Assembly (NCBI RefSeq): GCF_009831575.1
Contig: NZ_WUUT01000001.1
Coordinates: 829,345-893,344 of the forward strand
DNA from: Halovenus carboxidivorans
GTDB taxonomy: Archaea > Halobacteriota > Halobacteria > Halobacteriales > Haloarculaceae
DNA length: 64,000 nt
Direction: 5' to 3'
Shown here: positions 2,360 to 6,612 of the stretch, one piece after another
Position numbering within the stretch: the stretch's first letter is position 1
Layout: each line of letters starts with the position of its first letter
Notes under the pieces: generated by a model
Databases searched by the model: none
Told to the model about the DNA's origin: nothing
What the model saw: the letters and a program-made list of their open reading frames with translations, nothing else
Translations under genes and position numbers: made by a program

Positions 2360-4450
2360 TCAGCCGAAGTGTTCGAGCGGCGGTGTCAGCTGTCCGGAAA
2401 GCGCCTGCTCGATGTCTTCGGCTCGCCACCCGACCGGGGATAGCACGCTTTCGGCAGCTCTGACGAGCTGTTTCCGGTAGAACGAGATATCGTACGTGTC
2501 ACACCCCTCGGCGGAGAGGCGAACCCGCTCGCGGTCGGTTCTGTCGTCGTCGACGACGACGTAGGAGACGTCCGTGCCGGCGGCCGACTCCCAACCCCCG
2601 TCCGCGAGCCGCTGCATGGCCGCTGTCGTCTGTGTCGACTGCGTGTACTCGCCAAGTCCCTTCGACGTTCGCCTCGTCACCGTCAACTTCTCCGGGTCGA
2701 CCGTTTCCGTTTCGAGCCGACTCGTCCAGTCGGCCAACTCCGTACAGACGGCCTCCGGATCGCGGGTCTGATCGAACGCCTCGATCAGCGCGCGCTGGCA
2801 CTCCGCGACGAACGGCGGCGTGCTGCGCTGTCGACACTCGACCCCGCGATACTTGTATCCGCCGCCGGCTCGCTTGCCGAAGTACTTCGTCAGTGCGCCG
2901 CTCTCACTGTTGCGAAGCGGGACGAACGCAATCCAGTCGTACTCTCCCTCGTATTCGAGCCGGATGCCCGTCTGCTCCGTGACCGCAGTCGCGACCTCCG
3001 GCAGCGGTGTTCGGTCCCGACCGGGCCGCGGTGTGACCCAGAGGCTGTCGACGATGCCGTGGACGACCCGCCAGCCGGCCGCCTCCAACTGTGCCTTCGC
3101 ATCGAGTAGCAGTTCGCGGGCGTAGGCGTTGATGGCCTCGTGGCACTCGATCCGGCCGAACTTCGCGTTAGAGAACCCCTGATACCCGAAACAGGAGACG
3201 AGAATCCACTTCAGCGCGTCCGCCCGTCCCTGCAGTGTCGCTCTCCTCGCAGGATCGTCGATATCAGCGAGTTCTGCCTTGATCGCATCTCGATCGTCGA
3301 TGAGCGGCCCGAGCACGTCCGGCAGATACCCCGGTTCGTCACAGATGCTGTACCCGAGTCCCGGCACGTCCGCTCGGTCGTGACAGTCGCATCTGATCGT
3401 CTCGGGGCTGACGTTTCGCGTACAGATGATATTCGGGTACAGCGACGAGAAATCGAGTTCGTGGACGGTCTCGCGGACGCCGACCGCCGGAGCGAAGGTG
3501 AATCCACCGCGGTCGGCGTCGTGCAACTGCCGCATCTGTTTCGGAAACTCGTGGCGTCGACTCTTCCACGGAACGAGGACGTTCCGCGCGACTGCCTCGC
3601 GGATCTGGATCGCCGTCAACACGTTCCCAATCGAGGCCCACGAGAGCTCCTGTAACGGTTTCTGCGACCGCTCGACGAGGTCGAGGCAGCCGTCGAGGGT
3701 CGTCTCGTCGTAGAAGAAGGTGTTCGCCCGGTCGATCAGCACGCGACCCGGAACGTCGTATCGGGCCGGCGAGTGACCGACCTGCCCGTAGCTCTCGTAG
3801 GTCGACGCGCTCGCCAGTTGCTCGTATCCCGACCGCCGGCCCAACTGAACCGGAGCGTCGAGGCGCTGTCCGGTCTCGGTTACCGCCGGGACCAATTCGG
3901 CCGTAGACAGCACGAGTACGTCCGGATCGACCGCGTGCAGCCGTTCTCGCAGCGTCGCGACGACCTCAGTCGGCGTCTCACACAGATCGTCACCGATCCG
4001 CAACGCTGTCACCGGGACCTCGGGCGTACCGGGCTGTGGGTACTCGATATCGAGTGTCCGGAGCGACCGCTGTGGTGTCGCATCCCGCCCCGTCTCGAGG
4101 CAGTAGCGGAACGCTCGCGAGAGGTCGACGTTGAACAGACGGTAAGTCCCGGGCCGGCCCTGGCGGCGGATCCAGGCTGCAACCGGCTGAACGCGCCCGA
4201 TCGAAGCTACATCGATCCGGAGAACTCGTTCCTCGTCGCGCCGGAACGCGGGTCGCCAGCCCTCCTGCTCAACCGCTGCCACGTCTCCCCGCTGTTCGAG
4301 TCGGTCCGCGAGTCGGTCAAGACCGTCGCCCGCCGTCGTCGCGGCGTAGATTGTCGGCGTGTACGACGTGTTCCGGCGGGTCCGGACGCCGTTGGCCGTC
4401 GCGTGCCACTCCCGGACGCCGTCGTCGGTGTACTCAACCGTCAGCACCAT
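2360..4450 (-). CDS. polB2: Divergent B-family DNA polymerase (PolB2-type)
   Basis: The 696-aa product is a short family B polymerase. Motif A is intact (DFSSLYPNII, Asp333). Motif B retains Lys414, but the usual NSxYG reads VSCFG. Motif C reads H-G-I-V-D-S instead of YGDTDS, so the first aspartate is replaced by isoleucine and only Asp468 remains. The exonuclease region keeps an LDIE (133-136) resembling Exo I, but I see no Exo II motif, so proofreading is probably lost. Both aspartates generally needed for metal binding (Asp333, Asp468) persist, so catalysis is possible. Its start overlaps the upstream 91-aa gene by 17 nt. Archaeal PolB2 proteins were first regarded as inactivated; translesion activity has been reported for a Sulfolobus relative. 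Confidence 0.9.
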   Translation of the reverse strand: MVLTVEYTDDGVREWHATANGVRTRRNTSYTPTIYAATTAGDGLDRLADRLEQRGDVAAVEQEGWRPAFRRDEERVLRIDVASIGRVQPVAAWIRRQGRPGTYRLFNVDLSRAFRYCLETGRDATPQRSLRTLDIEYPQPGTPEVPVTALRIGDDLCETPTEVVATLRERLHAVDPDVLVLSTAELVPAVTETGQRLDAPVQLGRRSGYEQLASASTYESYGQVGHSPARYDVPGRVLIDRANTFFYDETTLDGCLDLVERSQKPLQELSWASIGNVLTAIQIREAVARNVLVPWKSRRHEFPKQMRQLHDADRGGFTFAPAVGVRETVHELDFSSLYPNIICTRNVSPETIRCDCHDRADVPGLGYSICDEPGYLPDVLGPLIDDRDAIKAELADIDDPARRATLQGRADALKWILVSCFGYQGFSNAKFGRIECHEAINAYARELLLDAKAQLEAAGWRVVHGIVDSLWVTPRPGRDRTPLPEVATAVTEQTGIRLEYEGEYDWIAFVPLRNSESGALTKYFGKRAGGGYKYRGVECRQRSTPPFVAECQRALIEAFDQTRDPEAVCTELADWTSRLETETVDPEKLTVTRRTSKGLGEYTQSTQTTAAMQRLADGGWESAAGTDVSYVVVDDDRTDRERVRLSAEGCDTYDISFYRKQLVRAAESVLSPVGWRAEDIEQALSGQLTPPLEHFG

Positions 4451-4709
4451 CGTCGACCTCCTCCAGTTGAGCGACTCGCTCGGTTAGCGCCGCCAGTTCC
4501 CGCTCGTGTGCCAGTAACACCGATACCAGAAACGGTATCTCGGGGTTCGGGTGGTTGAGGTAGCCGGCAGCGTGGGCGTACGTTCGCCCGTGCTCGAACA
4601 GTCGCTCGACGTGTGGCTGCTCGCTCGCCCGCAGCGCCCGGCGATAGGGCTCGAACTCCGCCTCGATCTCTTCGAGACGGTCACGGTAGGTCGGGTTAGT
4701 TCGACCCAC
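4434..4709 (-). CDS. Small helical protein of the PolB2 cassette
   Basis: This 91-aa protein lies between the RadA-like gene (14-nt overlap) and the polymerase gene (17-nt overlap), a layout that implies translational coupling. It is predicted mainly helical. The first half has a charged amphipathic helix (YRDRLEEIEAEFEPYRRAL), and the C-terminus looks like a short coiled coil (HERELAALTERVAQLEEV). No enzymatic motif is visible. By position it may be an adaptor between the RecA-fold protein and the polymerase, which is inference. I do not recognise a named domain. Confidence 0.82.
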   Translation of the reverse strand: MGRTNPTYRDRLEEIEAEFEPYRRALRASEQPHVERLFEHGRTYAHAAGYLNHPNPEIPFLVSVLLAHERELAALTERVAQLEEVDDGADG

Positions 4710-5406
4710 GAATACTCACCCCCAACCTGTCCTCAGGTGTGTCTCCCGGCGTTTCGTAGAGCGGCTCCCGACTCGCGAGCACGTCGGCCCAGAACGCGAG
4801 CGTCGTCTGCACCACCTCGCCGCCCTCGACGGGATACACGAGGGTCTCCTCCTCCGGCGTCTGGAACCGCGGCCCGAACGGGGTCTGCTCGCAGCGCACT
4901 CGCTGATCCGCCGCCCGTTCGACCGGCGCGCTGAACTCGTCGGCACGGCTCCGCGTGACCAGCGCGGCCACGTCCGCTCTGCGAGCGATCCGGGCGAGCG
5001 ACACGACCCCGGTGAGCAGCATCTCCTCGCCCTCGTCGGCGAGCAGGCTGTCGTCGCGGTAGTACCGGTCGATCTCCGGGACCACGACGAGGCTCGTCTC
5101 GGCGGTGAGCCAATCCGGAAGCTTCTGCAGGAGCGCGAGGTGCTGGAACGGGGTGAACCCCCGCGCGACCCGGATCTGGTCGAGAATCCGCGCCGAAGGG
5201 GCGAGGTCGGTCAGCGGGTCTGTCCGTGCGCGCGTCCCTGGATCGATCCAGATTCCGGTTCCCCCGGAGAGCAGGACGTGATCGACAGCCAGCGCGTGGA
5301 CGACGTTGTCTATCGAGTCGGTGTCGTTGCAGAGTGTAATCCCGGGGTCGAGGTCGGGCACCGCGGCGATCTGATCCGGCGTCGAGCGTCGGGTGGATCC
5401 TGACAT
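4696..5406 (-). CDS. RecA/RadA-fold protein lacking Walker A
   Basis: The 236-aa product resembles the core of RadA/RecA ATPases. Residues 79-100 (VARGFTPFQHLALLQKLPDW) recall the RadA segment before Walker B, and LVVVPEID (106-113) occupies the Walker B position. The region that should hold the P-loop reads LLSGGTGIWIDPG (45-57), with no GxxxxGK[ST], so ATP hydrolysis is unlikely. The ATG at 5406 was chosen because a TATA-like box (5430-5437) lies 23 nt upstream; a longer ORF would run antisense through orc1. It is first in the cassette with the 91-aa gene and polB2. Composition is reminiscent of ImuA/SulA-type RecA relatives, by analogy only. Confidence 0.78.
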   Translation of the reverse strand: MSGSTRRSTPDQIAAVPDLDPGITLCNDTDSIDNVVHALAVDHVLLSGGTGIWIDPGTRARTDPLTDLAPSARILDQIRVARGFTPFQHLALLQKLPDWLTAETSLVVVPEIDRYYRDDSLLADEGEEMLLTGVVSLARIARRADVAALVTRSRADEFSAPVERAADQRVRCEQTPFGPRFQTPEEETLVYPVEGGEVVQTTLAFWADVLASREPLYETPGDTPEDRLGVSIRGSN

Positions 5407-5429
5407 ACACGGGGACTGTGCCGAGAGGG

Positions 5430-5437
5430 GGTTAAGC
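5430..5437 (-). promoter_or_regulatory. TATA-like box of the RadA-like/PolB2 cassette
   Basis: On the minus strand this reads GCTTAACC. It sits exactly 23 nt before the ATG at 5406, consistent with a leaderless transcript. The orc1 promoter has the near-identical box GCTTATGT at the same distance from its own ATG. Confidence 0.6.
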
Positions 5438-5448
5438 GAGTGGGCGGC

Positions 5449-5466
5449 GCTTCCGGGTTTCCGGGT
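5449..5466 (-). promoter_or_regulatory. 18-bp promoter element, cassette side
   Basis: Read on the minus strand this is ACCCGGAAACCCGGAAGC. It lies 11 nt upstream of the cassette TATA-like box. It matches the orc1-side copy at 5551-5568 in 17 of 18 positions, and both copies point toward their own promoter. The plus-strand view shows two tandem TTCCGGGT units (5451-5466). Identity of the binding factor is unknown; Orc1 itself or a stress regulator are candidates. Confidence 0.6.
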
Positions 5467-5550
5467 TCTGCGGTGACTCTCGCTCCCGACCCGGGTTCCA
5501 AGTTGTGCGTCGGTCCGCCGCGGTCGGAGGTTCGCTGCCGGTGCGTCGCT

Positions 5551-5568
5551 ACCCGGAAACTCGGAAGC
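5551..5568 (+). promoter_or_regulatory. 18-bp promoter element, orc1 side
   Basis: ACCCGGAAACTCGGAAGC lies 11 nt upstream of the orc1 TATA-like box (5580-5587). It is the inverted partner of the copy at 5449-5466, with 84 nt between them. It contains GGAAAC, also part of haloarchaeal origin recognition boxes, but lacks the long G-run usual in those boxes. Confidence 0.6.
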
Positions 5569-5579
5569 ACGGCCCTTCC

Positions 5580-5587
5580 GCTTATGT
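5580..5587 (+). promoter_or_regulatory. TATA-like box of orc1/cdc6
   Basis: GCTTATGT is followed by 23 nt and then the ATG at 5611. This supports 5611 as the start of a leaderless mRNA over the upstream in-frame ATG at 5584, which lies inside the box itself. Confidence 0.6.
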
Positions 5588-5610
5588 GGCTGGCAGTTGA
5601 TCGCTCGGGT

Positions 5611-6612
5611 ATGATTCAGGACGCCCGCGTACTGCAGGACGACCATCTGCCTCGCGAGATTGTCCACCGCCACGAGGAGATGGCACAGCTCGCGACGGCG
5701 CTCGAACCCGTCGTCGAGGGTGACCGCCCGCAGCACGCGGTGTTGACGGGTCCGTCGGGGGCGGGGAAGACCTGCATCGCTCGGGCGACGCTCGACCGCC
5801 TCCAGGAGCAGGTACTCGACGTGCATACCGCCCACGTCGACTGCTGGCTCCACCACAGCGACTTCCGGATCCTTTACAAACTGCTCGAAACGCTCGGGAC
5901 GACCTACGACATCCACCGGTCGACGCCGCACGACGAACTGCTCGACCGACTCGCTGATCTGGAGAAACCCTTCCTGATCGTGCTCGACGAGGCCGACCAG
6001 ATCGACGACCCCGATCTGCTGCGCCGGCTGTACAGCGTTCCCCGGATTACGATGATTCTGGTCACCAACCACCAGCGAGACCTCTTCTCGCCGCTGGACG
6101 AGCGGCTGCAATCGCGGCTCCGGAGCAGCGACACCATCGAGTTCGACAGCTACACGCACGACGAACTCGTCGCGATCCTCTCCGACCGAGCCGACTGGGG
6201 GCTGACTGACGGCTCGATCACCGACGACCAGCTCGCTCGGCTGGCGACCGCCGCCCGTGGAAACGCCCGCGACGCCATCAGTATGCTGCGCTCGGCGGCT
6301 CGGAACGCGGAACAGGCCGGCCGCGAGCGGATCGACGAACTCGACATCGACGAGGCGATTCCCGCTGCCAGGGCAGAACTCCGCCAGAAGAGCCTCGACC
6401 GACTGACGGCCGACCAGTTGGCCGTCTACGACGTTCTCCGCGAAGGCGGGGAACTCATGCCGAAAGAGATCACTGCGGCGTACCAACAGCGCGTCGACGA
6501 CCCGAAATCGAAACGGACGGTCCGAAAGTATCTGCGAAAACTCGAACAGTACAACCTGATCGAGGGCTCGGGAAACGGACCCAGTAAGGTCTACACGACG
6601 ACGAGCTCCTGA
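5611..6612 (+). CDS. orc1: Orc1/Cdc6-family replication initiator
   Basis: The 333-aa AAA+ protein has Walker A GPSGAGKT (47-54), Walker B FLIVLDEAD (121-129), a sensor 1 region (MILVTNHQ, about 148-155) and a C-terminal winged helix ending near KYLRKLEQYNLIEGSG. This family binds origin recognition boxes and helps load MCM. It is shorter than the roughly 400-aa main haloarchaeal Orc1 proteins and may be one of the accessory paralogues. It is divergent from the RadA-like/PolB2 cassette and shares a matched promoter element with it. The 204-bp intergenic region has no obvious AT-rich unwinding element, so it is not clearly an origin. Confidence 0.93.
   Translation: MIQDARVLQDDHLPREIVHRHEEMAQLATALEPVVEGDRPQHAVLTGPSGAGKTCIARATLDRLQEQVLDVHTAHVDCWLHHSDFRILYKLLETLGTTYDIHRSTPHDELLDRLADLEKPFLIVLDEADQIDDPDLLRRLYSVPRITMILVTNHQRDLFSPLDERLQSRLRSSDTIEFDSYTHDELVAILSDRADWGLTDGSITDDQLARLATAARGNARDAISMLRSAARNAEQAGRERIDELDIDEAIPAARAELRQKSLDRLTADQLAVYDVLREGGELMPKEITAAYQQRVDDPKSKRTVRKYLRKLEQYNLIEGSGNGPSKVYTTTSS

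Follow-up and report, generated by a model that had tools for sequence, protein, structure and literature searches.

The closest described counterpart of the locus treated here is the network of Saccharolobus islandicus, where the Orc1/Cdc6 paralogue Orc1-2 binds a site termed DDRE (ANTTTC) in the promoter of its own gene and in those of damage-response genes, and where dpo2, the gene of PolB2, is part of the network and is induced by it (PMC9738581, PMC10470591). Also the PolB2 mutasome operon iRadA-PPB2-polB2 with its orc1/cdc6 neighbours has already been published, including the enrichment of orc1/cdc6 close to polB2, and these papers suggest a role in DNA damage and a regulation of the operon by Orc1 (PMC4104785, PMC11791011). 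The control of mutagenic repair in euryarchaea is poorly known. The window analysed here, a stretch of 64,000 nt from Halovenus carboxidivorans, contains such an operon next to an orc1 gene, and the two share a promoter element.

Two matched promoters in the window

In the window, iRadA, PPB2 with its MGRT N-terminus, and polB2 are adjacent and co-directional, as in the PolB2 mutasome operon, and motif C of the polymerase reads HGIVDS, the first Asp of YGDTDS being replaced as described for Dpo2. The neighbouring orc1 encodes an Orc1/Cdc6 protein with an AAA+ domain including Walker A and B, a Cdc6 lid, and a C-terminal winged helix. There are several more Orc1 homologues in this genome, and this gene is the only one of the short subfamily (Table 1).

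Between iRadA and orc1, the motif ACCCGGAAAC[TC]CGGAAGC occurs twice, once per strand, with 17 of 18 positions identical, and each copy is followed by 11 nt, a TATA-like box of 8 nt, another 23 nt, and an ATG (5406 on the minus strand, 5611 on the plus strand). The initial annotation had described these two inverted copies and their spacing, and coordinates and identity were confirmed to the base, with the distances being exact at both copies. The copies lie in an inverted repeat of 34 nt (5433-5466/5551-5584, 82% complementary) whose boxes are separated by 84 bp. The copy at the orc1 promoter consists of two CGGAA units with a period of 8 bp (GGAA at 5555-5558 and 5563-5566), and in the promoter alignment the CTTA region of the orc1 TATA-like box is kept in congeners. 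As an archaeal BRE abuts the TATA box and the gap is 11 nt here, the element does not qualify as a BRE.

The element is rare in its own genome. Besides the two copies, none is found in the window at up to three mismatches (0.2 expected), none with fewer than two mismatches in the 3.25-Mb genome, and a 40-nt promoter profile gives two strong matches only (E 1.4e-9 and 6e-9), the next one having an E of 0.026. Around this third match (G000:C2:146481), neither a TATA box nor a gene start is suitably placed; it is probably a chance match.

Table 1. Features of the orc1/PolB2 locus, in window coordinates
Feature	Position	Strand	Basis
polB2, family B DNA polymerase	2360..4450	-	NF004418, 1000.7 bits
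PPB2, small helical protein, GTG start, N-terminus MGRT	4434..4709	-	MGRT as in PMC11791011
iRadA, RecA/RadB-like protein	4696..5406	-	family match very weak
TATA-like box of iRadA operon, GCTTAACC	5430..5437	-	23 nt before ATG
putative operator copy, iRadA-PPB2-polB2 promoter, ACCCGGAAACCCGGAAGC	5449..5466	-	sequence, recurrence in relatives
putative operator copy, orc1 promoter, ACCCGGAAACTCGGAAGC	5551..5568	+	sequence, recurrence in relatives
TATA-like box of orc1, GCTTATGT	5580..5587	+	23 nt before ATG
orc1/cdc6, short, 333 aa	5611..6612	+	AAA+, Walker A GPSGAGKT, Walker B LDEAD, C-terminal winged helix
predicted recognition helix of Orc1 winged helix, residues 301-313	6511..6549	+	near-invariant in short subfamily

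Recurrence and specificity of the element

The element and its fixed position are deeply conserved. A check of the orthologous intergenic regions found the same element with the same spacing before both orc1 and iRadA homologues in dozens of haloarchaeal genomes and across haloarchaeal genera, in most relatives about 39 nt ahead of each start codon. A motif fitted on 139 regions upstream of orc1 and iRadA homologues reads TTCCGGAAATTCCGGAAACGAC, and its end is mostly 39-45 nt from the start codon. In its generalised form, the element has two CGGAA units that are followed by a GC-rich spacer and the TATA box, with a unit period of 8 bp in the clade of the window and of 9 bp in most others, and with just a single unit, TTTCCGGAAACNACCC, in one Orc1 clade that is often encoded on plasmids. 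A double or single unit was also recognised by inspection in 21 of 27 scorable orc1 promoters that lay outside the fitting set, at loci mostly of other families; no clear element was seen before several orc1 relatives (L026, L033, L052, L059, L340, L345, L348). About 130 nt upstream of the plasmid-type orc1 genes L141, L144, L145, L148, and L149, there is another CCGGAA repeat, which is longer and precedes TTTCCAC.

At those polB2/iRadA loci of relatives where the operon has a short orc1 beside it, the usual order is orc1, iRadA, PPB2, polB2, all in one direction, and in these loci orc1 and iRadA each still have their own element, TATA box, and start-codon distance. In the congener G097, the iRadA operon is found on scaffold C9 and orc1 on C2, with ACCCGGAAACCCGGAAG being kept at both promoters. 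G109 was dropped as a second unlinked case because an exonuclease fragment is found on both of its contigs, which may lie next to each other. When the most closely related orc1 and iRadA promoters are aligned, element, TATA box, and start are conserved and the rest has diverged. As element and spacing thus recur also at co-directional genes and on separate scaffolds, the initial claim of a co-regulation of orc1 and the cassette by one factor is well supported; of the "matched divergent promoters" proposed at that stage, the matching stands, each promoter having its element, but the divergent arrangement is incidental. In 23 of 27 genomes or loci, both promoters have the same unit period (8/8 in 8, 9/9 in 15, mixed in 4; uncorrected for ancestry), and this agreement fits one common factor.

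There is a strong preference for these genes. Profiles of the 8-bp and the 9-bp type (R1 and R2), run against 146 genomes of the window's family, gave 107 matches, compared with about 0.2 predicted by chance at the thresholds used; the profiles had been trained on part of the matched sites, and recovery is therefore partly by construction, but the rarity of other matches is not. Short orc1 genes follow 55 of the matches and iRadA genes 24, others precede the exonuclease gene described below, a PPB2, an orc1 paralogue, remnants, three copies of a gene for a 104-aa winged helix-turn-helix (wHTH) protein, and one 98-aa HTH gene, and 17 have no assigned gene. In three genomes of one genus, the element lies about 60 nt upstream of the gene of the 104-aa protein, which is PadR-like (L281, L283, L284 in G056, G054, G057). 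Good period-9 elements are also present at G075:C1:561604, 565858, 1685315, 1688165 and G081:C1:2895007 (L285, L286, L294), where no downstream gene start is recognisable.

A third putative target is an RNase H-like protein (DIETTG, YNGETWNGGFDLPF, HNLADIRRT; Pfam RNase_H_2) that is encoded beside orc1 with the element upstream, divergent from orc1 in G097 and G109 and after orc1 in G111 (L187, L170, L188). In many plasmid-type cassettes, a homologue of this exonuclease follows iRadA-PPB2, in some directly before polB2 (L202, L203, and others); none was found in the window's own genome. As PolB2 proteins are described as no longer having a proofreading site of their own (PMC11791011, PMC4104785), it is an attractive idea that the separate exonuclease may serve PolB2 as a proofreading partner.

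The short Orc1 as candidate regulator

The element is linked to one Orc1 subfamily. It is present before 69 of 74 short Orc1 genes (20 with period 8, 29 with period 9, and 20 of the single type, six of which were assigned by eye), and it was not detected before the longer initiator-like Orc1 paralogues that were sampled in the same loci. In a tree that includes nine of the longer ones, the short proteins are a single, separate clade (100/100), and as the single-type element is confined to one clade of the short proteins, the element varies in step with the Orc1 clade. This subfamily of about 333 aa is haloarchaeal and at E<=1e-45 was found only in the window's order. The predicted recognition helix is the third helix of the winged helix, and its residues R302, T303, R305, Y307, L308, and K310 are nearly invariant, as expected if all short Orc1 proteins recognise similar DNA. 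The AlphaFold model of the window's Orc1 has a confident AAA+ domain plus winged helix (pLDDT 91.6), and the nearest solved structures are those of archaeal Orc1/Cdc6 proteins, DNA-bound forms included, with 2qby_A as the best PDB match. Among 146 genomes, short Orc1 and iRadA are both present in 72 and both absent in 49, with 12 having only Orc1 and 13 only iRadA (uncorrected for ancestry). In two congeners without a detected iRadA, orc1 appears truncated (G106) or is a remnant (G103). At L171 (G106:C15:1502), an intact orc1 promoter is followed by a 96-aa ORF in which the Orc1 N-terminus is joined to the winged helix and the AAA+ domain is gone, and at L174 (G103) and L177 (G099) element and TATA box are kept and orc1 or the exonuclease gene, respectively, is now a short remnant.

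Because the element follows the short-Orc1 subfamily, Orc1, which the initial annotation had named as a possible factor, is the leading candidate and probably the protein that binds the element. Against it count G116, treated next, and the orc1 genes that have no clear element. It is rather unlikely that the operator common to both genes is used by a different transcription factor that is conserved in haloarchaea and encoded elsewhere, or by a particular TFB, with Orc1 being only a member of the regulon. The position next to the TATA box would suit any activator or repressor, G116 keeps the element ahead of iRadA and no short Orc1 was found there (best Orc1 E 5.6e-28), and the 104-aa wHTH gene has the element itself. 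This protein was met with the element in three genomes only, however, whereas short Orc1 is the protein with DNA-binding capacity that is repeatedly found with the cassette. It is present in 49 of the 55 genomes that have the element, and in some of the other six, orc1 or the exonuclease gene is left as a remnant; also the covariation of element type and Orc1 clade argues for Orc1.

Genes for Orc1 proteins often flank replication origins, and with boxes inverted around 84 bp the pair could be part of an orc1-linked origin, with ORB-like boxes for an initiator Orc1 and only secondary effects on the promoters. This is very improbable and was rejected: the inversion is not conserved, both boxes having the same orientation in most relatives, each at a fixed distance to a TATA box and start; with an intergenic GC of 67% and A/T runs of at most 4 bp, an AT-rich region for unwinding is lacking; a clear skew switch was not seen; and the longer initiator-like Orc1 genes sampled lack the element. 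The 34-nt arms and their complementarity would also suit a recent inverted duplication of local DNA that has no role in regulation, but this reading is refuted by conservation, as the element with its spacing is kept at unlinked genes and in dozens of genera, with diverged flanks.

Proposed circuit and known systems

The best explanation overall, and a probable one judging from the sequence comparisons, is that the short Orc1 operates the element of a self-controlled regulon for the PolB2 translesion system. The 18-bp element would then be the operator of a small dedicated regulon, in which this non-initiator Orc1/Cdc6 paralogue would bind the pair of tandem CGGAA units shortly ahead of the TATA box at three kinds of promoter, those of orc1 itself, of the iRadA-PPB2-polB2 operon, and, in genomes that have it, of the exonuclease gene. 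Its binding would set the level of the PolB2 translesion machinery, and orc1 would be autoregulated. Very probably, orc1 and the PolB2 operon are switched together, most likely by Orc1 itself. By analogy with Orc1-2 and Dpo2 of S. islandicus, the net effect may be an activation after DNA damage, for which the chances are about even. In the accessible part of a UV array report on Halobacterium NRC-1, polB2 and orc genes are not among the induced genes, which counts against the circuit. A compact SOS-like circuit, in which an Orc1 paralogue serves solely as a transcription factor and via tandem CGGAA controls itself, the PolB2 mutasome, and the exonuclease, may be considered a serious possibility that falls just short of even chances. 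If such a circuit exists, PolB2 would be under the control of Orc1 proteins in Halobacteria as well as in Sulfolobales, and the question would arise whether the use of Orc1 proteins as transcription factors is ancestral or began more than once. With a defined operator, a named candidate regulator, and a short list of targets, Orc1-based damage control is directly testable in haloarchaea.

Like in orc1-linked archaeal origins, there are an Orc1-type winged helix and intergenic boxes by an orc1 gene, but the locus differs from the ORB-type origins in having no conserved inversion and no AT-rich unwinding element and in its fixed promoter spacing. With the bacterial LexA-controlled PolB2 operons, it shares the linkage of a translesion polymerase operon to the gene of a presumably autoregulated regulator, but the proposed regulator, an AAA+ Orc1 instead of LexA, is unrelated, and so is the putative operator. 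The published PolB2 mutasome operon agrees in gene order, in the MGRT start of PPB2, and in the orc1 neighbour, but the accessible text of that work treats gene neighbourhoods and describes no common cis element or regulon. In the literature searched, a motif-string search included, no description of either was found, and as far as this literature goes, the putative haloarchaeal operator, the promoter geometry, the regulon with the exonuclease, and the link to an Orc1 subfamily appear to be new.

The S. islandicus Orc1-2 network remains the closest counterpart by anatomy, and the proposed haloarchaeal circuit is like it; membership is not claimed because the exact DDRE ANTTTC is absent from the window's element, which reads CGGAAAC (reverse GTTTCCG). 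The promoters of the distant orc1 relatives L350, L351, and L110 contain tandem ACTTTC, identical to the Sulfolobus DDRE, and a similar motif, TTCACTTTCAC, is present in the iRadA promoter of L057. The two systems differ in the regulator, for which the candidate here belongs to a short haloarchaeal subfamily and is often encoded beside the operon, and in the putative operator, a tandem CGGAA repeat instead of a single hexamer, with only the GAAA/TTTC core in common. In both cases, a non-initiator Orc1/Cdc6 paralogue is linked to PolB2, as the proposed regulator in haloarchaea, where one element is common to the promoters of orc1 and the PolB2 operon and Orc1 is the candidate to bind it.
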